Shown piece by piece: positions 13,988-35,084 of a stretch of 64,000 nt of DNA. The DNA is taken from IMG/VR virus record IMGVR_UViG_3300032069_000007, positions 16,288 to 80,287 of that record. One strand, 5' to 3'. Below the pieces are notes generated by a model. The model saw only the letters and a list, made by a program, of their open reading frames with translations, was not told where the DNA came from and ran no database searches. Both the position numbers and the translations under genes were made by a program. The DNA comes from a virus. Every line of letters begins with the position of its first letter. Position 1 is the first letter of the stretch.

Positions 13988-14146
13988 ATGGCTGAAGCCG
14001 TTCCCGAACCCGCATTGTGGGCAGCCAAGCCGCAGCCTGACCGCAACGTCGGCGACGGGTGGCCTGCTTGGGACATTGAGTGCGATCGCTGGCGCGACCC
14101 AGAACGACCAAGGGAGCAAAGATGGCGCCGACCGAAACCGCAGTAA
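13988..14146 (+). CDS. Small hypothetical protein, 52 aa
   Basis: Starts at ATG 13988 behind a strong GGAGG site and ends at TAA 14144-14146. It is Trp/Arg/Pro-rich: MAEAVPEPALWAAKPQPDRN at the start and REQRWRRPKPQ at the end. It overlaps the start of the giant protein (ATG 14122) by 25 bases in another frame, so translation of the two is likely coupled. No function is recognised. Confidence 0.5.
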   Translation: MAEAVPEPALWAAKPQPDRNVGDGWPAWDIECDRWRDPERPREQRWRRPKPQ

Positions 14147-17100
14147 AGCCCGTTCTGGATTTGCACGACCTCGAGAAGTCGAGGGTGAGGGCGTACACCC
14201 GGCGTGGATCGAGTGGTCAGCCAGTTCAGGTTGCCGAGTATCAGACGAAGGTCCAGAAGAGACCGCAAGCCCCCGGCGGGCCGCGTCTCACGGTCGCGCG
14301 TCAGCCAGCAACTCGCTCTGCCAGAAGCCGGTTAGCCTCTGCCTCGTCGATGCGCTTCCCATCGCGCAGAAGGTCGGCGTACAGGACGTCAGCACGCACC
14401 CAGTCCGCATCCCAGGGTGAGCGGCGCTCCACGGCATCCAAGGAGGTCTTGCCTTCGTCCTCCGACTCGACCCAGGAACGGCAGACGGTGTCGCCGTCCA
14501 AAACCCAGTATGTTAGTTCGCGGTCTGGCACTGTCCGGTCCACCCCCAAGGTCATTATACCACGAACAGCAGCGGCAACGACATCGGCGGCGCTCAGCCG
14601 CAGAATATCCAACCTCGAGAGCACCGGCAACGGTCACGAGGTCGCAAAGTATGCGGCGGCGATCGCGGCTCACCTCAAGGACGCACCGACGCCCTTCAAG
14701 GGAACGTGGGAGGACAAGCGACAGCCGACAGGCGACATCCCGGACCTACTGCAGCTTGCAGAGAGTGCCAAGCCGAACTTTGAAGCGAGTCTGGGGAGGA
14801 TCGCTGATCGGCACGGCGGGGCTAGTGCCTGCCGCATCAAGCAGGAACAAACGCTCAGGACGCGGATGCGCGACAAGGGCCGGCCCGCTGATACCGTGAC
14901 GGACATTCTCGGCGGCCGGATCATCACCGATGACCCTGCGCACATCGCTCCCGTTCTTCGAGAGTTGCGAGAACTCTATCCCGTAGTAGAGGATGAAGAT
15001 AAGTTCGCCCACCCTACGTCCTTTGGCTACTGCGCCCGGCACGTGCTGGTCAAACTGCCGAGCGGCCTTACGGCCGAAGTCCAGGTCAACCTCCGAGAAT
15101 CCATCGAAATCCAGGATGTCGTCAGCCACCCGATCTACGAGGAGCTTCGCGCACCGAAGCGCAGGACCGTCGAAGAGCGCCAGGCGTTGCTCGCGAAGGT
15201 GGACGAGATACGGGGCCGGTACGCCGAGGTTCTGCGCAAGGCGACTGCGGCTCTCGGATTGGTGGTCAAGTCGCTCGTTGTTCGGTCCGTTGCGGCCTTC
15301 CAGGAGGCGAAGCACCCGCGAGTGCCACAAGGGCAGCGGGATGCCGAGGGTCGAACCGGCGGCGAGTTCGCGCCCAACCGCACCGGCAGATATACGCGGA
15401 AGGTCGTGACGCCGCGCGGCAACGTCGTCTACGTGTACCCGAAGCGCGTGGCCCAGGCCCGGCAGTCGGCCAAGTTTCGAGGGATGCAGAAGTTGGCGGG
15501 AAAACTGCCGACAATCCGCACTGCCCTCTCGCAGGATATCCGGCGCAGGGACCTCGAGGAGCGAAGAGTCTGCGCCGTTGCAGTCGCACTGATAGACAGC
15601 CTGCACTTCCGGGTCGGCACAGAGGGGGCCGAGACCGCCGGCGAGCCGACGTACGGCGTGACGACGCTTTTGGGTGACCACGTGCGCAACACGGACGCCA
15701 AGATCATCTTCCAGTTCCGCGGCAAGAAAGGGGTCCAATGGTCGCGGGAACTCCACAAGCCCGATGACCCGGATCTGGCGAGCGCCGTGGAGCAGATCTT
15801 GAGCGGCGTCGGACCGGACGAGCGCGTTTTCCGCTTTCGGGGCGCGCGCGGTCTCGAGCCTCTGACCGGGTATCGTGTTGAGAAGTACCTCAAGAGGTGG
15901 AACACGACGCCGAAGGCGTTCAGGACATTGCACGGGTCATACCTGGCGCACAGTGCGCTGTCACAATTTGTCAGCCAGCACCGCGGTCAGCGGCAGTCCA
16001 GGAAGCAGGTGAAAGCAGATATTCGCGAGGTCTGTAGCTATGTTTCCGCGGAACTGGGGAACACGCCCGCGATCGCGAAGCGGAGCTACATAATGCCGGA
16101 GATCATCCGAAGCTACATTGAGTCCGAGGGCACAAGGGTCGAGCCAGACCTCAAAATGGGGAAATCATTGGACGTCTGCCAGCTCTGGATTTTGGCAAAC
16201 GAGCACGGTCAGGTCCGCGGGTTCCTCCACAATGCGACGGAGCACGTCGAGCGGTTCGCGGACCAGCTCGCAAAGGCCCGAGTGGAGAAGTCCGACCAGG
16301 AGGTCGAGAAGTCACAGTTGGGGCTGCCGTACCATCTCGAAGGCGGGGTTGGCTCGGCGCACAGGGGGGCCAAGAAGCGGCTCGGCAGGCGCGCGCTGAT
16401 AGTCCGGACAGGCCGACAGCCAAAAGCGGCAGGCGATCCCGACCTGTCGCGGAAGATCAAGCGCATTGTCGGAGTCGTTGATACCCGCCAATACGAGGAG
16501 ATCGGCGACACGTGGAAGCCCATCGCCGGTAGTGGGACAGTGAACCAATGTGCGCGCTGCGGGAAGGACCATGAGGTTCATGCGACGGTCGAGCTTCAGG
16601 ACGGCACGCACGCCGTAGTCGGCACGAGCTGCATGAAGGCCGACAACATGGAGATGGCGCTGCGCTTCGAGAAGCTCGACCGGGCGGCCAGGCGGCTGCG
16701 GCAGCTCGAAGCCGAAAAAGCAAAGTACGATAGGGAAGTGCAGCAGTACCAGGGGGCGCTCGCGGAGGTCAGGGCGATGCCGAAGCCTCCGATCGAGGTC
16801 GTTATTGCTGAGGACCACCCTTGGTCACGGTACGAGTACAGAATGGGCGAAGCTAGGTGCTGGGGCGAGAAGCCCGATGATCCAGAGCGGCGCATGTGCG
16901 TAACATCGAACTGGGAGACGAAAGAGCTCGTGAAGCGCGGGATCCCGCACGGGCGGCGTCCTTACCCACTCCACGAATTTGACAGGGAAATCGCCAAGGT
17001 GAAAAGGCGGATCGAGGCGGTCAAGGCAGAGTCGGAAGTCGAGAAGTCCTCTCTCTCGCGCGCGCGCAAGATAGTCACGGAGATGTACGAAAATCTTTCA

Positions 17101-20100
17101 AGCGATGCCACGCTCGAGTTCGCTCAAGACGGCGAATGGTATATCGTTCCCCGCATTGAGAAGGCCGGCGCTGCGACAGCAGAACCAAAACAGAAGGAGT
17201 GGTGGTCAGGAGCTGCGACCGGAGACGAGCGCTGGATCACCGTCCATCCGGACCCGGGCAGTCCTGAGAACTACCGCCACGTCAAGGTTCGGCTCAGGCC
17301 CTCCGGCAAGTGGCACATCATCGCCGGCGGAACCGGCCTCGAGCACGAAGAGATCGTTCCGAAGCACAAACTGACGCCGGAAGAACGGGAGCGCTACGAG
17401 GAGCGCCGGAAGAAGATGGAGGGGATCCGCAAGGAGCGCGAAAAGGGCCTTGAGCGGCTGACCGAGGTGCGGGAACAGCACACGAGCGTAAAAGCCGAGC
17501 AGATGGGGATAGCACCCACACTGACCGAGGACACGCGGCGGGCCGTCGAGCACAGGGCAGAGACACGGGCGGAGGATGCCGGCCTGACCGGAGACGACCG
17601 GGACCGGTTTGTAGCCCGCGCTGTCCACGAAGCTGAGACGCGGCACCACGCTTACGTGCGCCGGGCTTGGGATCGCCTTTACTATCAGGCTCACAAGATC
17701 GCCCAGGCAGAGGACCCGGAGCTCGCCGTTGGCGAAATAGCGAAACGGCACGACGAAGAGGAGGATCGGGCCGCTGATGAAGCCGCGGGCAAGGTGGAAT
17801 CGAGCCTGCGAGAGATGATCGGCAAGCCGGCCTCCTCGGGTGAACCGGAGGCTGAGGAGCCGAAGGCTGAAGTTGCCATCGCCGAGACCGAAAGAGCTCA
17901 GCCGATTTACCGGCCGCCGAAGGTCAAGCCGATCTCCTCCGTGGAGCAGGCTATGAAGATCATTAGCCTGGAGAAGCAATCCCGCAAGATGATCGCAGAA
18001 GGCCGGAAGGAGCTTGCGAAGCTGCCCGAGGAGGAACTGTCCGGGACAGGAACGCTCGAGCAGTTTCAGATTACCGCAGAACTTGCGGACGAGCAGGGCG
18101 CGATGGCTGCTGCTATCCGCTCCGTCGACGATGCCAGGCGCGCCAGCCTCAACTCTACGCTGGTCCGCTTGGCCGACGAAACGTTCCGATCCGAGGAGGG
18201 AGCGTACGAGCGATACGGCAAGAAGCGGTACGACATTGGCCGGGCACAGGTCACAGGCGCCCTGGATGCACTGACCGGGATCTCTACCCGGTTTATAGGT
18301 TCTTCTTTCATAGACAGGCCGCTGGTGGAGGCGCTGGGAGTCGAGGCTGCGGCAATGCTCGCAACCCGCGAGATTCTGCAAAAGCGTGGGAGGCTCGACT
18401 TGGACGACGTCATAGCCGATATGGAGAGCTACCACGCGGGCGAAGCGATGAGGATCGCGCAAGAGGCCGTAGCGCAGCACGACGAGCTCGAGGGGATGCG
18501 GAAGACGGTTGACGAATCCTCTGCGCGCGCGCTCGTTGAGGGCGGGGAGACAGGAAGGCTTTTCTCCACTGCCCAGGCCCTCGCTTTTGACGGCGAACTG
18601 AACGTAGACGCCGTAAGACACTTGGGCACGGCGATAGGATCCTTGCATGCGTCCGCGACGGTCATGGCGATGCTCCGGGCGGCGAAGTCCGGGAAAGGCA
18701 AGCTCGACGAACTCAAAGTGAACATTACAGACGAGGGCGATGTCGCTCTCATTGACAGGATGTTGCACCTCCGCGGTCACTACAAGGTCACGCACGACCC
18801 TGAGACCGGCACCACCTCGGTCCTGCTTAATCCAAAGTCGCTGGCCCGCTACATGAAGTTTGCAGCCAAGGAGCGCGAAGAGTCCGACTACGCGAAGGCC
18901 CTGCAGAACGGCACAGCGAAAATTGATGTCTCGGCAGCGCCGGAGGGCTGGAAGGACCGGTACACAAGCCCCATAGACCGCCAGGAGAGAGACTTCCATT
19001 GGAAGCCGATCCAGCGGCGCGCACAGGAGTTTTTCCTCAGCCAATGCACCGGCGACGACGGCGGCGCCCTGATCGACCTGGAAGTAGGAGGCGGAAAGAC
19101 GATAATGGCGCTCGGCGCGATGGGATTCCTCCGCGACCAGGGGAAAGTGCAAAAGATGCTTTACATTGCACCGCAGGAGTCCCTGGTGGGCCAGGTCCTC
19201 GGCGAGGTCGGGGGATTCACCGACTGGAAGTCGAATCAGGTGCGCGGAGGCGCAAGGGCAAGTCTTGACGACATCAGGGGGCGCTATTCCGACCCTTCGT
19301 TCGTTCAGGTGGTTTCTGCCCCTACGGTGGGCGCAGACGTCCGCCGACTGGAGCAGCTTGGGGTAAACCCATCGGACTTCTTCCGCGAGCTCGGGTACGA
19401 TGGAATGGTGGCCGACGAGGCCCACAAGTTGGTGTCTGGCGTCGGGGGGGGCAAGAACGCCCGCGCGCTCAGGCGTATGCGTATGCGCTACAACCTGGCG
19501 ATGACCGGCACGCTCGTGACCAACGCGATCTCTCAGCCCTTCGACCTTGTCCGGTGGGTCGCGGGAGCAAAGGTGGACAGCCGTGCGAAGATTCTGCGCA
19601 AGTATGGGGAGGTCGGGCTGGGAACCACGGCATGGCAGGACGCTGTCAACGCCGACGTCCGCCAACAGGTGGATCGGCACACATTCCACGGGGCCGGGAC
19701 CATCAAAGCCAAGCTCTATCGTAACGAACTGAAGGTGGGCCTCTCGGAGACGCAGCGGCAGGACCTTGCCCAGGCGGTTAAGGCGGACAAGGTGCGCCGT
19801 GATGAGTATGCCAAGTCCAGGCCAGCCACTCCCGAAAAGGCCGAGCAGGCGCGCAGAAAACTCGACTTCGACCGCGACCGCGAGGTCTTCGAGATTCTCC
19901 ACAACCGGGACTGGAAGCAGAACGACAGGTTGCGCGAGATCGCAAAGACGATCAAGCGGACGGTGGCCGACAACCCTTCACAGAAGTTCATCCTAGTGGC
20001 CGATACTGATTATGGACTCTCTGCCATCCGGTCGGTCACGCGGATGCTGGCTGATCTGGGCTACGGCGACAGGACAGCACTTTTCGCGAGTCAGGACGCC

Positions 20101-20424
20101 TCCGGTCAGGCGATCTCACAGAAGAAGATGATGCGCGAACAGGCCCGCTTCGCGGTCGATTCTAGCTGCCAGTTCGCGGTACTTGCCGCTCCGCAGGCGA
20201 TCGGGCGCAATATGGAGGCCGCCGGAGTCTTGGTACACGTCACGCTCCCGCCGGACGCCGGGTCGGAGAAGCAGCGGACAGGGCGCGCCTGGCGCGAGGG
20301 CCGGCAGGGAGATGTGAACGAGACGCTTTTCTATACCGACCAACATCCGTTTGATATGAGCCGCCTGCTGCAACTGAGGCGGACCGCAGGTCCGCTCGCC
20401 GCCATATCAGGAGGCCAACCGTGA
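14122..20424 (+). CDS. Giant polyvalent protein: RelA/SpoT-like, topoisomerase IB and SNF2-like helicase domains
   Basis: About 2,100 residues from ATG 14122 (GGGAG site). Order: a linker (RVRAYTRRGSSGQPVQVAEY); a Ser/Arg-rich segment antisense to a nested ORF; a RelA/SpoT-like domain (about 237-375; RIKQEQTLRTRM, VTDILGGRIITDD, FGYCARHVLVK, AEVQVNLRE); DNA topoisomerase IB (about 427-666) with FRTLHGS (R601, H604) and the nucleophile Tyr656 in KRSYIMP; a CxxC...C metal module (QCARCGKDHEVH); an RWITVHPDPGSPENYRHV module; a long charged helical region; and an SF2/SNF2-like helicase (about 1620-2100; GGGKT with K1659, DEAH from D1765, QRTGRAWREGRQG). The design matches polyvalent proteins of phages, thought to be injected to protect or prepare incoming DNA. 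Confidence 0.88.
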   Translation: MAPTETAVKPVLDLHDLEKSRVRAYTRRGSSGQPVQVAEYQTKVQKRPQAPGGPRLTVARQPATRSARSRLASASSMRFPSRRRSAYRTSARTQSASQGERRSTASKEVLPSSSDSTQERQTVSPSKTQYVSSRSGTVRSTPKVIIPRTAAATTSAALSRRISNLESTGNGHEVAKYAAAIAAHLKDAPTPFKGTWEDKRQPTGDIPDLLQLAESAKPNFEASLGRIADRHGGASACRIKQEQTLRTRMRDKGRPADTVTDILGGRIITDDPAHIAPVLRELRELYPVVEDEDKFAHPTSFGYCARHVLVKLPSGLTAEVQVNLRESIEIQDVVSHPIYEELRAPKRRTVEERQALLAKVDEIRGRYAEVLRKATAALGLVVKSLVVRSVAAFQEAKHPRVPQGQRDAEGRTGGEFAPNRTGRYTRKVVTPRGNVVYVYPKRVAQARQSAKFRGMQKLAGKLPTIRTALSQDIRRRDLEERRVCAVAVALIDSLHFRVGTEGAETAGEPTYGVTTLLGDHVRNTDAKIIFQFRGKKGVQWSRELHKPDDPDLASAVEQILSGVGPDERVFRFRGARGLEPLTGYRVEKYLKRWNTTPKAFRTLHGSYLAHSALSQFVSQHRGQRQSRKQVKADIREVCSYVSAELGNTPAIAKRSYIMPEIIRSYIESEGTRVEPDLKMGKSLDVCQLWILANEHGQVRGFLHNATEHVERFADQLAKARVEKSDQEVEKSQLGLPYHLEGGVGSAHRGAKKRLGRRALIVRTGRQPKAAGDPDLSRKIKRIVGVVDTRQYEEIGDTWKPIAGSGTVNQCARCGKDHEVHATVELQDGTHAVVGTSCMKADNMEMALRFEKLDRAARRLRQLEAEKAKYDREVQQYQGALAEVRAMPKPPIEVVIAEDHPWSRYEYRMGEARCWGEKPDDPERRMCVTSNWETKELVKRGIPHGRRPYPLHEFDREIAKVKRRIEAVKAESEVEKSSLSRARKIVTEMYENLSSDATLEFAQDGEWYIVPRIEKAGAATAEPKQKEWWSGAATGDERWITVHPDPGSPENYRHVKVRLRPSGKWHIIAGGTGLEHEEIVPKHKLTPEERERYEERRKKMEGIRKEREKGLERLTEVREQHTSVKAEQMGIAPTLTEDTRRAVEHRAETRAEDAGLTGDDRDRFVARAVHEAETRHHAYVRRAWDRLYYQAHKIAQAEDPELAVGEIAKRHDEEEDRAADEAAGKVESSLREMIGKPASSGEPEAEEPKAEVAIAETERAQPIYRPPKVKPISSVEQAMKIISLEKQSRKMIAEGRKELAKLPEEELSGTGTLEQFQITAELADEQGAMAAAIRSVDDARRASLNSTLVRLADETFRSEEGAYERYGKKRYDIGRAQVTGALDALTGISTRFIGSSFIDRPLVEALGVEAAAMLATREILQKRGRLDLDDVIADMESYHAGEAMRIAQEAVAQHDELEGMRKTVDESSARALVEGGETGRLFSTAQALAFDGELNVDAVRHLGTAIGSLHASATVMAMLRAAKSGKGKLDELKVNITDEGDVALIDRMLHLRGHYKVTHDPETGTTSVLLNPKSLARYMKFAAKEREESDYAKALQNGTAKIDVSAAPEGWKDRYTSPIDRQERDFHWKPIQRRAQEFFLSQCTGDDGGALIDLEVGGGKTIMALGAMGFLRDQGKVQKMLYIAPQESLVGQVLGEVGGFTDWKSNQVRGGARASLDDIRGRYSDPSFVQVVSAPTVGADVRRLEQLGVNPSDFFRELGYDGMVADEAHKLVSGVGGGKNARALRRMRMRYNLAMTGTLVTNAISQPFDLVRWVAGAKVDSRAKILRKYGEVGLGTTAWQDAVNADVRQQVDRHTFHGAGTIKAKLYRNELKVGLSETQRQDLAQAVKADKVRRDEYAKSRPATPEKAEQARRKLDFDRDREVFEILHNRDWKQNDRLREIAKTIKRTVADNPSQKFILVADTDYGLSAIRSVTRMLADLGYGDRTALFASQDASGQAISQKKMMREQARFAVDSSCQFAVLAAPQAIGRNMEAAGVLVHVTLPPDAGSEKQRTGRAWREGRQGDVNETLFYTDQHPFDMSRLLQLRRTAGPLAAISGGQP
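14301..14543 (-). CDS. Nested antisense ORF inside the giant protein gene
   Basis: The minus frame 14630-14301 reads like a genuine protein, e.g. ELTYWVLDGDTVCRSWVESE and DADWVRADVLYADLLRDGKR. The overlapping + frame is a Ser/Arg/Thr-rich stretch with no domain character, the usual look of antisense sequence. A consensus extended -10 (TGGTATAAT, minus strand 14562-14554) lies just upstream of a GTG at 14543, giving about 80 residues; TTG 14549 is an alternative start. This layout resembles the antisense HNH in intein 1. The function is not recognised. It could be a small insertion that left the host frame open. Confidence 0.5.
   Translation of the reverse strand: MDRTVPDRELTYWVLDGDTVCRSWVESEDEGKTSLDAVERRSPWDADWVRADVLYADLLRDGKRIDEAEANRLLAERVAG
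14554..14562 (-). promoter_or_regulatory. Extended -10 promoter element for the antisense ORF
   Basis: Minus strand reads TGGTATAAT, a perfect TATAAT with the TGn extension. No good -35 is present at 16-18 bases. The predicted transcript start is close to the GTG at 14543, again near-leaderless. Confidence 0.42.
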
Positions 20425-20790: not shown

Positions 20791-21129
20791 ATGTTGATGC
20801 TTATGCTAAGCAAGGAAGAGCGGTCTGCCCTGATGCGGCAAGTAACCGAGCGGATGCGGACCGTCGTCAAGGACTATCGCCGGACGCACAACATCACTCA
20901 AGCTCGACTTGCACGCCAACTTGATTGTGGGAGTCCCGCCGTGATTGGCAACTACGAGAACGGCAAAACTATTCCCCATTTCTTCACGCTGACCCAACTG
21001 TTTCTGGTGTGCGTACAGAATGCCCCGGAAGATGTCCTCGACATGATGAGGCGTCTGGGTTTGCCGGTCGACGAGGCCCTAGTAGAGATCCGATCGGGAA
21101 GGGGGGTCCCCGAATGCCAGCGTGGTTGA
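20791..21129 (+). CDS. Cro/CI-type HTH regulator
   Basis: 112 residues. Residues about 30-75 carry an XRE-type helix-turn-helix (NITQARLARQLDCGSPAVIG NYENGKTIP in sequence). The C-terminal 35 residues are helical and may dimerise. It lies inside the operon of giant proteins rather than in a divergent switch, and its 3' end overlaps the next gene's start (21114). It may tune expression of this block or, like its neighbours, act early in the host. The operator is not identified. Confidence 0.78.
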   Translation: MLMLMLSKEERSALMRQVTERMRTVVKDYRRTHNITQARLARQLDCGSPAVIGNYENGKTIPHFFTLTQLFLVCVQNAPEDVLDMMRRLGLPVDEALVEIRSGRGVPECQRG

Positions 21130-24062
21130 GAGCGGAAGACGAAGATAAGTGGGATAAGGCGAAGGCGGCGGCAAAGGAGTCCTATCCGGACATGAAGGAA
21201 GACGATGACCGCTACTGGGCTATCGTCACATCCATATTCAAGAAGATCGGAGGCAAGGCCGGAAAGAAGTCGCTTGCCGCGCCGACGATGGTGGTCGCCG
21301 TCGGGGGGTATGATCCGCTGTTCAAGTCCGAGCGGCCATCGGTTACCGAACAGGGCGATAAGTTGTACATCCGCACCCCGTACCACACTGGCTTCATAGG
21401 CGACATCAGGGACATTCCCGGTCGGAGATGGGATCCGGACCGCAAGGTCTGGATCGTCGGCAAGGAGCACAGAGAACGGGTCGACGGCATCATAGGCAAG
21501 CATTTCCGGGAAGAGGAGCACCCGCGCGCTCCTGCTGGCCTGCCCGAAGGTGGCCAATTTGTACCCAAGGAGGGCATTGGGGCCAAGGGCCAACAACAAG
21601 CACAACCGTCGGGGGGCACGGTCGAGGGGGCGAAGGAGCCACCCACGCAGAAACAACTGGACTATATGGGCAAGTTGGTTGCGGAGCTAAGACAGGATTT
21701 GACCGATCGGCGGTTTAGTCCGCCGACGTACAATCACGGCCCGTTGCCGTTTGAGAAGCAAGCAATCCTCAATCTAAGCGATGCCTTAGAGGCGCGGCAA
21801 CCTTCCCAGAGGCTTATCGAATACATCGACCGCCGATTAGCCAGCAGTCTCTTGGAGGCTATCGAATCTATGCACGACATGCCAAGGCGGCAAGCCTCCC
21901 TCGTGATCGACGCACTCCGCAGTGGTTCCCTCCGCCAACTCGCCCAAGCGGTTGCGAACACACCGGGTTATTCGGAGGAGGCGTTTGAGGGCGCTAAGCG
22001 ACGGCTCGACGCTCGCAGCGTCGACATCGTGAAGGAACTGGCCCAAGAACTCGGGGTTACGTTGACTCCGAGTGATGCTCAGCCCAGTAAGTCCTTGCGC
22101 CTCGTGCTCAAGGGGCAGTTATTCGGAACGGGCGTCCCGACCATCTACATAGTCCGCCACGGCAAGACCCACATGAACGGGGAGGGTGAACAGCCGGATC
22201 TCGTCCGCGGCTGGCTCGACCCACCGCTCGACGAAAAGGGCAAAGATGAGGCGAATAGGCTCGCAAAGGTCTTCGATTCAGTCCCGCTCACCAAGGTGTA
22301 CACTTCCGATCTCAAACGATCAGAGGAGACCGCCAAGGTAATAGCTGCCGAGACGTCTGCGCCCATAGAGGTCTCTAGGGCCTTCCGGCCCTGGAACCTT
22401 GGCCGTCTTCAGGGATCCAGCTCCAGGCAGTCCACGCCCACCATCCGAAAGTTCGCAGGACAGAATCCCACTACTCCCGTGCCAGATGGCGAGTCCTTCG
22501 AGGACTTCAAACACCGTTTCTTGGATGGCCTCAAGGGGCTAATGGACGATCTGGAGTCCGGGAAACCGCGCAGCGTCGTTATCGTGACCCACTATCGCAA
22601 CCTGAAGCTCGCACACGCCTGGGCCGCCGATGGCGGCAAGGCCGAGAAGGTCGACGTGAAGACTTTCCTCGCTGACGATATGCCGACCGGATATATCGGC
22701 AAGCTAACCTACGAAGGCGGCAAGTGGCATTTCGGAGCTGCGGAGGCGCAGATAGACGGAGCGATGCCCGAGGCCAAGAAATCTGTTTGCGGAACATTGG
22801 TAGTCGTTCTTCCTTCCAAGCGTGCGCCGGGTCCTCGGTTGGTGCTGAAGGGCCACAAGTTGCACTACCAGACGGACTTCCAGGGGATCTCCGTGTCCGT
22901 TGAGAATCGCAAGGGCAGCATCCGCCGGGGCAAGCAGAAAGGTGGCAAGGAGTGGGAAATGAAGATGTTCTACCTGTACGGCCGGATCCCGTACACCAAG
23001 GGCAAGGACGGCGAGGCCGTTGACTGCTTCATCGGCCCAAACAAGGAAAGCCAGAAGGTCTTCGTTATTCACCAGCGGACGCCAGACGGCAAGCACTATG
23101 ATGAGGACAAGTGCATGCTCGGGTTTGACGATGAGGAGCACGCCCGCGACGCTTTTCTGGCGCACTACGACTCACAGAAGTTCCTCGGCGAGATCACGGA
23201 GATGGGCATTGACAAGTTCAAGGAGAAGCTCAGTGAGACCCGCGAGTCCCCTAAGATGATAAAGAGTTTGCCGCAGCAGATCATCGTCCAGAAGTGGCGC
23301 AAGATAAAAGTCAAGGATGGCTTGACCATTCGAGTCCCTGGGGGGCCGCCAGTGGCGCCCAAGGGCAAATGCTATAAGCTAGTCATCGCTGAGGGCGCGG
23401 CGATTCAATGCTTCGCCCGGAAGGCTGATGCGGCGCGAGCGGCCAGGAAGATGAACGGCCAGGACCTGTGCGGCTTCTCATACGTGGACATCCCGACGTA
23501 CCCGGACGGCAGAAAGGTTCGGGTCCACAAAGCGTGGCCGGAAGGGTCCCGTGTAGGAAGTTCCAAGGATGTCCACCGGGCCCTAAAGGAGATGGGGCAC
23601 GAGGTCATCACTGGCAAGGGCGGGTTTCACATCAGGGGCAAGGGTTTTGTCTCGCTCGCCCAAGCGCGCAGGATGACCGGGATAAAGGCACCCAAGCGGA
23701 ACTTTCGCGGGAGGATCGGGCCGTACGGGGATCTGGCCTGGGTAGCGGCGATCAACAGGGTCCGGGTCGGCAAGGCGCTGGATAACCCAATTCCCGTTGT
23801 GTTGGTCGAGAAAAGCGACAAGACTGAGGGCATGACGATCCGCATAAAGCACCTTACGCCGGAACAGAAGGAGCGCATCGCGAACTTGATGGGTCCCTGG
23901 CAGTGGATGGGCCACGTTGGGACATCGCGGCCAACGGTGTTCTTCGCCGATGGGGACCGCGACTTTGGTCCGCAGGTCGAGGTAGACGGAGCACGGGTTG
24001 GAGGATTAACCCCAGATCTCGGCAAGCAGTACGAGGCGCACAAGGGCGTATTCGAGGTTTAG
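21114..24062 (+). CDS. Giant polyvalent protein: histidine phosphatase and pyrophosphatase-like domains
   Basis: 982 residues from ATG 21114, preceded by GGGGGG. The N-terminus (LRAEDEDKWDKAKAAAKESY) is a short helical unit common in phage multidomain proteins. A module with WDPDRKVWIVGKEH follows, then a helical region. Residues about 340-530 are a histidine phosphatase/phosphoglycerate mutase fold: VRHGKTHMNG (catalytic H349), TSDLKRSEETAKVIA, PDGESFEDFKHRF and VTHYRN (H493). Residues about 583-706 resemble the inorganic-pyrophosphatase-like domain of polyvalent proteins (SVENRKGSIRRG, GRIPYTKGKDGEAVDCFIGP). Modules are joined by KS-containing linkers. It may remove nucleotide signals or modifications after injection; the substrate is unknown. 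Confidence 0.82.
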   Translation: MPAWLRAEDEDKWDKAKAAAKESYPDMKEDDDRYWAIVTSIFKKIGGKAGKKSLAAPTMVVAVGGYDPLFKSERPSVTEQGDKLYIRTPYHTGFIGDIRDIPGRRWDPDRKVWIVGKEHRERVDGIIGKHFREEEHPRAPAGLPEGGQFVPKEGIGAKGQQQAQPSGGTVEGAKEPPTQKQLDYMGKLVAELRQDLTDRRFSPPTYNHGPLPFEKQAILNLSDALEARQPSQRLIEYIDRRLASSLLEAIESMHDMPRRQASLVIDALRSGSLRQLAQAVANTPGYSEEAFEGAKRRLDARSVDIVKELAQELGVTLTPSDAQPSKSLRLVLKGQLFGTGVPTIYIVRHGKTHMNGEGEQPDLVRGWLDPPLDEKGKDEANRLAKVFDSVPLTKVYTSDLKRSEETAKVIAAETSAPIEVSRAFRPWNLGRLQGSSSRQSTPTIRKFAGQNPTTPVPDGESFEDFKHRFLDGLKGLMDDLESGKPRSVVIVTHYRNLKLAHAWAADGGKAEKVDVKTFLADDMPTGYIGKLTYEGGKWHFGAAEAQIDGAMPEAKKSVCGTLVVVLPSKRAPGPRLVLKGHKLHYQTDFQGISVSVENRKGSIRRGKQKGGKEWEMKMFYLYGRIPYTKGKDGEAVDCFIGPNKESQKVFVIHQRTPDGKHYDEDKCMLGFDDEEHARDAFLAHYDSQKFLGEITEMGIDKFKEKLSETRESPKMIKSLPQQIIVQKWRKIKVKDGLTIRVPGGPPVAPKGKCYKLVIAEGAAIQCFARKADAARAARKMNGQDLCGFSYVDIPTYPDGRKVRVHKAWPEGSRVGSSKDVHRALKEMGHEVITGKGGFHIRGKGFVSLAQARRMTGIKAPKRNFRGRIGPYGDLAWVAAINRVRVGKALDNPIPVVLVEKSDKTEGMTIRIKHLTPEQKERIANLMGPWQWMGHVGTSRPTVFFADGDRDFGPQVEVDGARVGGLTPDLGKQYEAHKGVFEV

Positions 24063-30500: not shown

Positions 30501-33500
30501 GTTTCTCCAGAACGACAACAGCAGCTCCTGGAGGCGCGGCAGGCAGAAATGGCGCGCAAGCACGCGAGGGTCGCGACTCGCGCCCGGGGCAAGTTCGCAA
30601 CGGAGGAGCGGCTCGGCATCAGGCGTGAACGCGCGGAGGCCCTCGATCGGGCCATCCGTGGAGCTGCGCTCTCGCTGTTCAAGGAGAAGCCGCTGCCCGC
30701 GATCGAGCGGGTTACGATCGGCGCCCGGGCGGAGAAACAGCTCCAGTCCATCTTCCCCTACGTTGCCCAGAACTTTGAGGTTGACCGGCCGGTAGACATC
30801 CCTCACGATGTAAATATGAGCGAAGGTGAGATGGTAAAGCAGCAGCGCGCGGTGAAGCTGATCGAGGGCCTGAAGCGGCTTTCGCTCAACCTGGGCGTCG
30901 GCACCGGCAAGACCCTGGTCGCGTTGGGCAGCTTCTCAGACCTGCAAGCACGCGGCGCAGTCAACCGCGCCATCTTCGCTGTGCCAGCCAGCCTTACGGC
31001 GCAGTTCGGGTGCGTTCGGGGCGACACGGAACTCTGTGACCCTATCCGCGGACTCACCATGACATTTGAGGAGTGGCTGCTTTCGGGCCTGAGGCCCTTT
31101 GTCTGGACCCGGGCCGCGGGTGGACAAGTAACCATCGAACTGGCGTCTCGCCCATTCCTGAAGGGCCTTGATCGGATGTATCGCGTGGAGACGGACGATG
31201 GAGCGTCAATTGTTGTGACCGCAAAGCATCGCTTCCTTACGCCGAAGGGTTGGAGGCCGTTGTGCGAGTTGCCCGTCGGCTCGCTTGTTTCTTGCGCCGT
31301 CGCTCTGAAGCGTGCAACAAGCGATGCTCACGGTGGCTCCCGAGCAACTGGAGATTATCGATCCGGTTGTCATCCTTTTGGCCATTACGGTGATGAACGA
31401 GCTCATCCGGCTCCAGATAACGGCCAACGTGCTTTTCCATTATCAGGCGGTGCTCGAGATAGTAACCCAGTGAATTTGCCTGAGGGTGGTCCGGCACAAA
31501 CAACGCGATGTAGCCAGCAGAACGCCGAATCCGACCTCCCTTCCAGTTGTTTGCCTTTTCGCCCTTGTGACGGTTGGCATTGCCGAGTCTTGGAACGTCG
31601 AGCTTCTTCAGGCGAAGCCGAACCGCATCCTCGCTTGCGCCGTTATCCAAAATGCGGGCTATCTCCGAACACGACCGCCCCTGCTCAGCCAACTCTCGCA
31701 ACCGCTCGTCGCTCCACTCGTACCCAGGTGGCCTGCGCCCGTTCAGGCGGAGTTTCCGCATTCGACGAAGGACGGTCGCTTGTGTTGTCCCAAAGTAACG
31801 AGCCAGCCAAGATAGCGATCTCCCTTCTTGAACGAAGCGGCGGAGGTCGTTCTCATCTATGGAATGAGGTCGACGACCAGTGCGCAGAGCCTCGGAAAGC
31901 CCAAGAGCCCTCACCCGACGAGCCAAGTAGCTCTGACTCCTCCCGGTCTGCCGTGACATCCAAATGCAGGTTCGATCCTCGGCAACCCAATCCCGCAGTT
32001 GCTGATCCGGGACGGCGGCGTATTCTGGGAGACTTGGCGGAGTCAGTCCCAATTCAAGCAAGCGCCGCCGAAGCGTGTGCCGTGCAAGGCCGAATTGGCG
32101 CTCCATCCAAGCCAGCGACCTTCCCTGGCTGTGGTAGCGCCTCAATGCCGTTTCATCAACCTGTTTCGTCGGTTGGCTCATGCACCCAGTATAGCACAAT
32201 TCGCAACATCTCGGAAGTGGGGCTTGCCCTTGTCTTCGACATCGCAGTTGCACGGACACACAACTACTGGGCTGGCGGGTTCTGGAATCACAATTCGGAA
32301 GCCTTGAGGTTCTACGAACCTGGCAGGTTCAAATGGTTCGCCGACCCGACGGCCAGCGCTGAGGACCGCCGGGCCGCCTATACTGATCCCGATCGGCAGA
32401 TATGCGTTGTCACCCATCAGGCCCTCAGAGACGACCTCGTCTGGGCGGTGGGCCAGGATCGGTTCGGGGGCAATGTACGAAAAGCGGAAGACTGGATGCG
32501 TGCGGCTCCCGAGGACGAACGCAGGCACGAGGTACGTGCGGCAGCGGAGAAACAAGGGTGGAAGTGGGACATGTGTTTGCCGTACGAGGCTCCGGTGGCG
32601 ATGGCGGACGGAACAACTCGCAGGATCGGAGATCTCGTGGAATCCCGATCAAGCGATCCCGTGCTGTCACTCAACCTTCAGAGCGGTAGGTTGGAGGCCA
32701 AGTCAGTGTCCGATTGGTTGCGCTTGGAGTGCCCGCACCCCCAACTCTACCGAATCCTCGCGGGCGAAGCAAGCGTGATATGCACAGGTGATCATAAGAT
32801 ATGGACACTCGGTAGGGGGTATGTCCGCGCTTGCGAGGTGCGAGTAGGTGACCGACTTTTGGCTTTACAACCGACCGACTCTCTGCTAGAATTGGAACAC
32901 GATACCTTGAACCGGGGTGACAGAAATGGCAGTGAGGGATATGTTGGTCGGAACGCTTCTGGGCGATGCCTCGATGGGCCAGAGCGCTGCCGGGACGCCG
33001 CGAGTAACGATCAAGCACTGTCCCGCGCAAGAGGATTATCTATTCCACAAGTACGATCGACTGAGATCAATATGCCCATCTGCGCCGAAGTTCGTCAGGA
33101 ACGGGGGATGGGGCGGCGACCTCTGGGTCTTTCAGACGAGCTGCCTGGATTGGTTGCGGCAGTACCGGGAGATGATGTGGCGCGACGGGAGGCGTCGGAT
33201 TGCCGACGCCGTGAAGGATCACTTGACCCCGGAGGCACTGGGTTACTGGTATATGGACGACGGTTCGCTGTCGAACGGGTGTGCCACACTCAGCACACAC
33301 AGGTATTTGCGGGAAGATCAACGGAAGCTGCGATCTTGGATCCGCCAACTGTACGAGATCGAGGTTCTGGAACGCTACGACCGAAGGCACGACCGGTTTT
33401 ATATGGCGATGCGCAGAGAGGCGACGCGCCGGTTTGTGGCACTTCTGAGTCCCCACGTGCCGGAGTCCATGAGATACAAGCTGAATGTGCCGAATGCGGA

Positions 33501-35084
33501 GTTGCTGCCGTACATAGCGCCAACCCCGGAGGCCCTGCCGGGACGACTGTGCGTGATCTGCGGTCAGCGGTATGCCTTTCAGCAGGTCTGCGACTCTCCG
33601 GAATGCAAGCAGACCAAGAGGGACTGCGACAACCGGCGTTGGTACGACGCGCACGCTGCCGAGATCTCGGCGAGAACTCACGAGGAGCATCTGCGGAATC
33701 TCGGAGAGGGAACGTGCGAGGTGTGCAAGAGTCAATTCCTCCGCACCAGTCGCCTCCATGTACGCACGTGCTCGGCGGCATGTCGAGCGGAGTGGAAACG
33801 CCGTCGGGCCCTGGCATGGTACTACCAGAACTGCGATGCCATGAAGCACCAGTAACCTCAGTCGAGTTCACAGATGCGCCTGCGTTTGTCTATGACATAA
33901 CGGTGGAGGAGAACCACAACTTCTTCGGCTACGGCCTCCTCGTCTCCAACTGTCTTGTTGATGAGGGTCAGGATATTCTCCGCCGGCTTCATAAAGCCGA
34001 CAGCCTGATGCAGCACGCCATCGACGCTCTGTCATATCACACTCCCTATTACATCTATTCCACGGCCGACCCCGTCAAGAACGACTGGTCGGAAGTCCAC
34101 GACGTTTTGGCAAAGGTAGCACCCGACCGTTATCCCGCCGCCAGCCGGGAGGAGTTCCACCGCCGTTACGGAATCGACTGCCTCCAGACTCAGCAGGCGC
34201 TCAGACAGGAAATGCACCCATTCGCCTATGCCGAGCGTATTCCTCTGGGCATCGTGGCAAGCAGGAGGCAGGAGCCAGTGCAGCTCTCTGCCCCAGAGCA
34301 ATCCGAGTACGACGGTGTCCTCCAGGCATATCGAACCGCGCAGACGGCACGGCGCGCCGGAAAGGTAGACGATGCCGTCCCCGCGTTGCGGCAGATGAAC
34401 CCCCGTGCCTTCGAGGGCAAAAACGAAGCCGAACAGCGGACAGAGGCGGGGAGGATGTTGCAGTTCCTCTCGGCCGCCAGAGACTCCGCGCTGGACCGAA
34501 TCGTCAACGCAGGTTCGGTGCGCGGGGCAGGCGTGCGCATACCGGCCAAACTTGAAACATTGCACGCGTTCGTGCAGTCACGAATAGCAGAGAAGGGCGC
34601 TGGCCTCGTCTTCGCGCACTCGATAGAGGCGCAGAACCAGATCGCGGGATACCTCAAGAGCAAGGGGATCAAGGTGGGCACCCTCTCAGGGTCTGACCCC
34701 GGGGCGAAACGCGAGCGCACGCGCCAGGACTTTCAGGCCGGCAAGTTTGACGTCCTCTGCCTCAGCGATGCTGGATCGACGGGGCTCAACTTGCAGAGGG
34801 CCGCATTTTGCTGTAACTTCGACTCGCCGTATACGGCGAAGACCTACGAGCAGCGGATCGGCCGCATGGAGCGGCTGGGCCAGACCAACCCTGATATGAA
34901 GGTTCTGGATCTGGTTACGACCACTCCCTACGAGCGCGGCCGGAGGCGACTCCTGGAGCGCAAGGGGAAGCTGCGGGAGGCGCTGACCGCGCCTTACGAA
35001 ATGCTTGATGACACCGATTTGGGGAGAGAAATCGCTGAGGCGCGAAGCAGTGAGATCGAGAAGGCAGTACTTAAAGCCGCTTAG
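27525..35084 (+). CDS. Giant SNF2-like helicase polyvalent protein interrupted by two inteins
   Basis: One open frame of about 2,519 residues; GTG 27513 is an alternative start but its ribosome site would be too close. The N-terminus holds a Cys cluster ([18 protein letters not shown]) and the [18 protein letters not shown] module also found in the giant protein at 14122. A long charged helical region follows, then an SF2/SNF2-like helicase: GVGTGKT (K1129), motif Ia-like [17 protein letters not shown] split by intein 1, motif II VDEGQD split off by intein 2, then TGLNLQRA and [12 protein letters not shown]. Spliced length is about 1,632 residues. Both inteins sit at conserved helicase motifs, as inteins usually do. 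It is nearly the last gene before the terminator at 35430. Confidence 0.88.
31237..32181 (-). CDS. Antisense HNH homing endonuclease nested in intein 1, with four HTH repeats
   Basis: 314 residues from the ATG whose first base is 32181; the frame extends to 32259, but the promoter lies inside that stretch. The N-terminal 190 residues contain four repeats of about 45-50 residues of the form xLRxxxxxGRSxxWxxRxxG...RRxxxLGL, each a likely helix-turn-helix. The C-terminal HNH_3-type core reads [38 protein letters not shown] and HREHRLLH. It is transcribed against its host intein and should cut intein-free alleles of the helicase gene. Most intein endonucleases are fused in frame on the sense strand, so this arrangement is unusual. 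Confidence 0.85.
32188..32216 (-). promoter_or_regulatory. Promoter of the antisense HNH gene, leaderless layout
   Basis: On the minus strand, -35 TTCCGA (32216-32211), a 17-base spacer and -10 TATACT (32193-32188). The ATG follows after 6 bases, exactly as at the HNH gene at 2309. The -35 is weak, the -10 is good. Confidence 0.52.
32864..32892 (+). promoter_or_regulatory. Sigma70-like promoter of the LAGLIDADG gene inside intein 2
   Basis: TTTACA (32864-32869), an exact 17-base spacer, and TAGAAT (32887-32892). It falls within intein-coding sequence after block B, and 33 bases before the ATG at 32926. This is among the clearest promoter matches in the window. Confidence 0.62.
32926..33855 (+). 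CDS. LAGLIDADG homing endonuclease nested out of frame in intein 2
   Basis: 309 residues from ATG 32926 (GTG 32917 is possible; GGGGTG lies upstream). The two catalytic helices are [14 protein letters not shown] and [14 protein letters not shown], as in compact double-motif enzymes. The C-terminus adds two Cys fingers ([10 protein letters not shown] ... CDSPECKQ and TCEVCKSQF ... CSAACRAEW), resembling those of the HNH enzyme at 2309. It has its own promoter, start and TAA stop, and its frame differs from the intein frame, which remains open throughout. It is therefore an independent gene invading an intein rather than a standard bifunctional intein. Confidence 0.87.
   Translation: MAVRDMLVGTLLGDASMGQSAAGTPRVTIKHCPAQEDYLFHKYDRLRSICPSAPKFVRNGGWGGDLWVFQTSCLDWLRQYREMMWRDGRRRIADAVKDHLTPEALGYWYMDDGSLSNGCATLSTHRYLREDQRKLRSWIRQLYEIEVLERYDRRHDRFYMAMRREATRRFVALLSPHVPESMRYKLNVPNAELLPYIAPTPEALPGRLCVICGQRYAFQQVCDSPECKQTKRDCDNRRWYDAHAAEISARTHEEHLRNLGEGTCEVCKSQFLRTSRLHVRTCSAACRAEWKRRRALAWYYQNCDAMKHQ

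Follow-up and report, generated by a model that had tools for sequence, protein, structure and literature searches.

We analyzed a 64-kb stretch of viral DNA (64,000 nucleotides, positions 16,288 to 80,287 of the 80,287-bp IMG/VR virus record IMGVR_UViG_3300032069_000007; hereafter the window), in which one uninterrupted open reading frame (ORF) for a helicase precursor carries two inteins. Each intein harbors a homing endonuclease gene that lies outside the intein reading frame, either on the opposite strand (intein 1) or in the +1 frame of the same strand (intein 2). The features of the locus are listed in Table 1.

Table 1. Coordinates of the helicase gene, its two inteins and the nested nuclease genes in the window
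Feature	Position	Strand	Basis and remarks
Helicase precursor ORF, SF2/SNF2-type, 2523 aa	27513-35084	+	One uninterrupted frame; Helicase_C E=8e-17
Intein 1, 428 aa (C...GGFWNHN/S)	31011-32294	+	Splicing blocks; C-side extein starts SEALRFYEP
Intein 1, N-terminal splicing half (C1; TAKH block B)	31011-31295	+	TIGR01445; pLDDT >85
Intein 1, C-terminal splicing half (blocks F/G)	32182-32294	+	Block alignment, codon usage, AF2
Nested HNH gene, 314 aa, HTH repeats and HNH_3	32181-31237	-	ATG 32181; stop 31239-31237
Extended -10 like box TGCTATACT	32182-32196	-	Ends 6 nt 5' of HNH ATG; weak
Intein 2, 459 aa (C...GLLVSN/C), inside helicase Walker B (WDM/CLVDEGQ)	32574-33950	+	PF14890, TIGR01445, TIGR01443
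Intein 2, N-terminal splicing half (C1; TGDH block B) and linker	32574-32925	+	TIGR01445, AF2
Promoter-like site TTTACA-17-TAGAAT, TG ahead of -10	32864-32892	+	10/12 matches
Nested LAGLIDADG gene, +1 frame, about 309-312 aa	32917/32926-33855	+	GTG 32917 or ATG 32926; TAA stop
Intein 2, C-terminal splicing half	33853-33950	+	TIGR01443 E=3e-9, AF2

Both inteins have complete splicing blocks with their catalytic residues, as an earlier note on this DNA had proposed for 31011-33950. Intein 1 starts with Cys, has TAKH as block B and ends in His-Asn followed by a +1 Ser, and the corresponding elements of intein 2 are Cys, TGDH, Ser-Asn and a +1 Cys. The Pfam profile Intein_splicing (PF14890) matches two stretches with 72.5 bits, TIGR01445 recognizes both N termini, and TIGR01443 recognizes one C terminus. 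Removal of 31011-32294 and 32574-33950 leaves a helicase of 1636 amino acids (aa). In its helicase part, this extein aligns at 35-39% identity and gap-free across both junctions with intein-free helicases (Bordetella phage PHB04, Thermus phages Cumys and Lalka8, Morganella phage Mecenats66, and a Rhodovastum plasmid), so that both inteins are in-frame insertions with seamless extein junctions. In 80 further IMG/VR helicase relatives, the matched stretches have the intein-free length. The splicing halves of both inteins are predicted to adopt the HINT fold: in AlphaFold (AF2) models, the predicted local distance difference test (pLDDT) is around 90 for the blocks of intein 1 and above 90 for those of intein 2, and the middle forms a disordered insert below 45. 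The first Foldseek matches are the Mtu RecA mini-intein (intein 1, E=2e-9) and the Mtu RecA splicing domain (intein 2, E=2e-7). With inserts of about 300 aa, neither is a short contiguous mini-intein, and the host gene is one open ORF rather than a fractured gene with a split intein. An intron explanation was rejected, as Rfam gave no group I or group II intron match at E<=1 in 30900-34100.

An endonuclease is absent from the reading frame of either intein, again as the earlier note had it. The product of the antisense gene in intein 1 contains an HNH_3 domain (E=3e-10) together with helix-turn-helix (HTH) domains and matches a PHROG HNH family (E=7e-25). The protein encoded in the +1 frame of intein 2 (P0003) matches LAGLIDADG_2 (PF03161, E=2e-28), retains the LGD and DDG catalytic motifs and carries C-terminal Cys clusters; among solved structures, its nearest neighbor is I-SceI. 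The note had credited both genes with starts and stops of their own, which both indeed have, and with promoter-like boxes, for which the case is less good. A Shine-Dalgarno-like GGGGTGA lies 5 nt 5' of the LAGLIDADG ATG at 32926, and the promoter-like site ahead of it is decent, two sites of that quality having been found in this search versus 0.8 expected. The box preceding the HNH gene is weak, and no real -35 element is seen beside it; a leaderless start is possible from its position. Promoter boxes for the two genes are thus weakly supported, and independent promoters are not established.

We analyzed which frame is used by permuting synonymous codons inside each nested gene, keeping its protein sequence and codon usage. 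In 2000 such shuffles, 8.6 helicase-frame stops are expected in intein 2 and 7.4 in intein 1, the observed number is zero in each, and for neither gene did a single shuffle (0/2000) reach zero. The other frames at both genes have no stop deficit. In each of 11 loci shuffled in this way, the intein frame contains no stop where between 2.6 and 14.8 are expected, and eight further loci also have none; because these loci are related and partly pre-selected, the p-values hold for each locus singly, and the totals describe rather than prove. A codon-usage model trained on 22 other genes of the window phage scores the helicase frame best in the exteins and the splicing halves, the HNH frame best at 31240-32181, and the +1 LAGLIDADG frame best at 32926-33852. 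In these two latter intervals, the helicase frame scores like non-coding DNA. These sequence patterns support the view that the nucleases are separate overlapping genes and that the intein frame, whose openness across them the earlier note had recognized, is kept open by selection against stops.

The arrangement is not unique to the window phage. Of the 80 closest IMG/VR relatives of the HNH family, 31 are embedded antisense in a single uninterrupted ORF. Intein blocks were recognized in nearly all of these 31, and no detected intein shares the strand of the HNH gene. Where TerL hosts were inspected, the intein sits at Walker A. The antisense phase is identical in all 31 loci and in intein 1 of the window, and the host frames contain no stop versus 195 expected in sum. 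One clade of 12 distinct sequences among them yields a ratio of non-synonymous to synonymous differences (pN/pS) of 0.12 in the HNH frame versus 2.25 in the host frame, and 1370 of 1861 differences fall on HNH third positions. A low pN/pS in the antisense phase termed off1 (0.18) was rejected as a signal, since its third positions are shared with HNH codons and the value is only their shadow. In Pectobacterium and Dickeya phages, cultured Pectobacterium phages among them, a TerL-like gene with an intein contains an antisense HNH gene that is missing from the annotation. In a Pectobacterium TerL pair, divergence is threefold lower in the overlap (26/696) than in the rest of TerL (171/1569), and of the 26 changes, 10 leave only the HNH protein unaltered, 9 leave only TerL unaltered, and 7 alter both. 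In its N-terminal splicing half, intein 1 shares 36-43% identity with antisense-HNH TerL inteins, from which splicing domain and antisense HNH gene appear to move jointly between host genes. TerL is the commonest host of antisense-HNH inteins in other genomes; the TerL of the window itself (480-2255, + strand), which matches PHROG 675 over nearly its whole 591 aa, has no detectable intein. One TerL ORF (L320, 284-3808) combines an antisense-HNH intein at Walker A with an apparent second intein downstream, whose nuclease-like region is in frame.

The +1-type LAGLIDADG layout recurs in about 15 other intein families, including those of a cultured phage and of cyanobacterial dnaX. IMG/VR scans revealed out-of-frame LAGLIDADG genes in TerL inteins (L097, L101, L104, L105/L106, L113/L131, L201/L202, L204), in two helicase inteins (L140, L141) and at other loci (L203, L205, L212-L214). 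Those inteins that were measured start with Cys or Ser and end with Asn before Cys, and the intein frame is open in all these loci. The L140 record (G046), a 203-kb viral contig, has 14 intein N-terminal matches across several genes. Outside inteins, a protein family combining HTH and LAGLIDADG parts was seen at L099, L109, L117, L122-L124 and L127, in L099 with a ParB-like C-terminal part.

A tblastn search with the window LAGLIDADG protein identified the cultured Xanthomonas phage FoX3, whose DECH-box helicase contains a 314-aa intein with an unannotated, out-of-frame LAGLIDADG gene. Its siblings FoX1, FoX2, FoX5, Murka and M29 are 97-99% identical in the helicase gene and have an empty site, FoX3 being longer by exactly 942 bp (314 codons). 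The insertion separates the Glu codon of the DECH box from the Cys codon (DE/C), and the immediate flanks differ by silent changes only, at -1 and +2. At sequence level this is a precise and recent insertion, of the kind expected if the composite had homed as a whole.

Among 84,980 prokaryote genomes scanned, about 38 cyanobacteria turned out to have a +1 LAGLIDADG gene within their dnaX intein. In 37 of these inteins, from genomes and metagenome-assembled genomes, both splicing halves are present and the intein frame is stop-free throughout the insert, versus a mean of 18 stops in the third frame; the nuclease core itself is interrupted by stops in 4 of the 37. For the 32 loci whose nuclease is intact, pN/pS amounts to 0.30 in the nuclease frame versus 0.96 in the intein frame. 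Full-length inteins usually measure 430 aa, which is also the length of the published Synechocystis DnaX intein. Shorter forms of 136-162, 229 and 339 aa exist at the same site, as would be expected if the nuclease is lost while splicing must be kept. Splicing of the natural Ssp DnaX intein has been reported as demonstrated, and the intein is listed with a putative endonuclease domain, a different frame not being mentioned (PMC3620165).

The earlier note had suggested a substitution test to find the frame under selection. Run on these relatives, it points to purifying selection on the nuclease frame, and not on the intein frame, in both the dnaX and the antisense-HNH sets. The note's description of the precursor insert as junk-like also agrees with the data: codon usage is non-coding, the models are disordered, and pN/pS in the corresponding frame of relatives is about 1 or more.

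These findings together make it highly probable that each insert in the window helicase is a composite mobile element, formed by a HINT intein and a complete, separately translated, overlapping homing endonuclease gene. In such an element, the ribosome would read the helicase frame straight through the nested gene, giving a precursor with some 300 structureless residues between the splicing halves. The halves would fold together, splice the helicase and discard the insert. The nuclease would be translated separately from its internal start and cut helicase alleles without the element, and repair would copy the whole intein over. Selection would then preserve the protein sequence of the nuclease, and the intein frame would need only to be free of stops, to change length in threes and to keep its splicing blocks intact.

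Alternatively, the nested nuclease could be a parasite of the intein only, homing into nuclease-free mini-inteins without moving the intein into empty host genes. Gene-free mini-inteins do exist at the dnaX site, and in our tree the out-of-frame nucleases fall among free-standing ones. We nevertheless regard this as improbable: the FoX3 insertion comprises the intein together with its gene, and the siblings have empty sites rather than mini-inteins; the short dnaX series looks like deletions; and the splicing domain of intein 1 travels jointly with its HNH gene between different host genes. It is very unlikely that the inserts never splice and are simply tolerated by the protein, as has been proposed for ShiLan in phage methylases, where an out-of-frame HNH insertion lacks a splicing domain (PMC11855218). 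Both window inserts, however, are bordered by full sets of splicing blocks that include the catalytic residues, and a HINT fold is predicted for these blocks. The sites in relatives are Walker boxes of TerL and dnaX, normally essential genes, in viable phages and bacteria, and an insert of 300-600 aa at a Walker box would be expected to destroy function unless removed.

We give equally little credence to a frameshift or sequencing error, by which insertions or deletions (indels) would have thrown an ordinary in-frame intein out of frame. In-frame members of the same LAGLIDADG family do occur in inteins (KLEP7, L107, L116, L121, L128, L136-L139), and L226 and L234 are further in-frame fusions. 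They form clades of their own in the tree, apart from the out-of-frame nucleases, which mix with free-standing and fractured ones, although deep support is weak. This explanation is already contradicted by the antisense cases, as an indel cannot create an antisense gene. Moreover, both intein ends share one stop-free frame, each nested gene has a start and a stop of its own, and cultured phages as well as 37 cyanobacterial genomes and metagenome-assembled genomes show this arrangement too. The earlier note had reasoned that such errors would be indicated by relatives in which an in-frame nuclease fusion occupies the same place; we found none, and many genomes, several cultured phages among them, share the out-of-frame layout. 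Finally, an open helicase frame by chance has a virtually negligible probability: long antisense ORFs are common in the GC-rich window, but the shuffle tests, which keep amino acids and codon usage, already refute chance, other frames have no deficit, and the frame is also open in AT-richer relatives (L101, L113, cyanobacteria).

What the sequences show is the architecture, the constraint on both frames, the recurrence and a precise recent insertion in a relative; splicing, cleavage, homing and separate promoters are what we infer. Several points weigh against the composite-element reading. The promoter match of the HNH gene is weak. Choice of the surveyed loci was guided in part by a shared frame of the two intein ends, and many loci are related to one another, so that their shuffle totals do not amount to independent trials. 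Close relatives of the window's own inteins were not found, and the dN/dS-type figures come from other loci only: IMG/VR scans with single proteins (the window LAGLIDADG protein; the helicase) found nothing, and cultured phages contained no match to the window inteins at the DNA level. An alignment of six LAGLIDADG proteins had no usable pattern. That the Ssp DnaX intein is of the out-of-frame type is our assumption, based on the length match and on sequence.

The earlier note saw mini-inteins invaded by free-standing genes. Invasion is plausible because the LAGLIDADG nuclease of intein 2 is of the intron or free-standing kind and does not group with the in-frame ones in the tree; for intein 1, whose splicing domain and antisense HNH gene travel as an old unit, it was not recent. 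In the tree, the out-of-frame state needs five changes, of which the starred branches force only one, so that multiple origins are not proven. The nucleases of FoX3, L140 and L141 group with those from fractured genes, with modest support. Nucleases of this family in fractured genes are found at L098, L115 and in the helicase of Pectobacterium phage Abuela. The Abuela helicase gene (L010, 1518-4724) is broken into two ORFs that carry the split intein halves, and between these lies an overlapping LAGLIDADG gene; this phage also carries an antisense HNH gene in its TerL intein.

The recurrence of one arrangement in many phages and on cyanobacterial chromosomes gives it the look of an overlooked construction of selfish elements. 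It seems reasonably likely that these inteins form a widespread, unrecognized class, in phage TerL and helicase genes and in cyanobacterial dnaX, with the nuclease as an independent overlapping gene in sense or antisense. Such a class would have arisen repeatedly from free-standing nucleases and may be an evolutionary intermediate that links ordinary inteins to fractured genes with split inteins. It may account for large inteins apparently without an endonuclease and offers a route to split inteins. The loci provide a clean and large natural set for the study of overlapping genes, with selection on one frame and only the demand for no stops on the other. They also suggest that a splicing domain can accommodate arbitrary peptide of 300-600 residues, a point of relevance to intein engineering. 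The nested genes of FoX3 and of the Pectobacterium phage TerL have been missed by annotation. In the open-access literature, we found no paper on intact inteins with out-of-frame or antisense nuclease genes; a 2025 preprint on a "non-canonical architecture" of actinobacteriophage inteins (10.1101/2025.01.02.630785) may be prior art, and priority is uncertain.

Two other genes of the window have unusual domain compositions. A 2114-aa ORF (14080-20424, + strand) is an odd fusion of RelA/SpoT-like, eukaryotic-type topoisomerase I (Topoisom_I) and DEAD/ResIII helicase domains, and a 1045-aa ORF (20925-24062, + strand) combines histidine phosphatase and inorganic pyrophosphatase domains.

We compared the window inteins to known systems. 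Textbook inteins such as PI-SceI fuse the nuclease in frame. These bifunctional inteins, including the RNA ligase intein of KLEP7, likewise hold a nuclease between HINT halves, in the same insertion region, and share composite mobility, but their nuclease is encoded in the intein frame and released by splicing, whereas in the window it is another gene in another frame or on the other strand. As a gene of its own, the nuclease can be expressed independently of the host protein, and the DNA must satisfy two frames at once. The 430-aa cyanobacterial dnaX inteins, with their +1 LAGLIDADG gene, resemble intein 2. In 2009, Dassa et al. reportedly described fractured genes in which a free-standing nuclease is located between split intein halves. 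They share the separate nuclease gene between intein halves, but comprise two ORFs and splice in trans, whereas the window gene is one continuous ORF that would splice in cis; the grouping of the FoX3, L140 and L141 nucleases with fractured ones suggests that the continuous form may be the precursor. Group I intron ORFs such as I-SceI, the nearest structure to the window LAGLIDADG protein, are also separate nuclease genes within a self-removing element. Group I introns leave at the RNA level, so that, unlike in the window inteins, no second frame must stay open. The nearest published case is ShiLan, an out-of-frame HNH gene of patchy distribution inside a mycobacteriophage DNA methylase gene whose frame is open (PMC11855218). 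Intein 1 resembles it as an antisense variant; ShiLan is on the sense strand without a detected splicing domain, and its authors consider the insert not to be removed (PMC11855218), whereas both inserts in the window carry splicing blocks.

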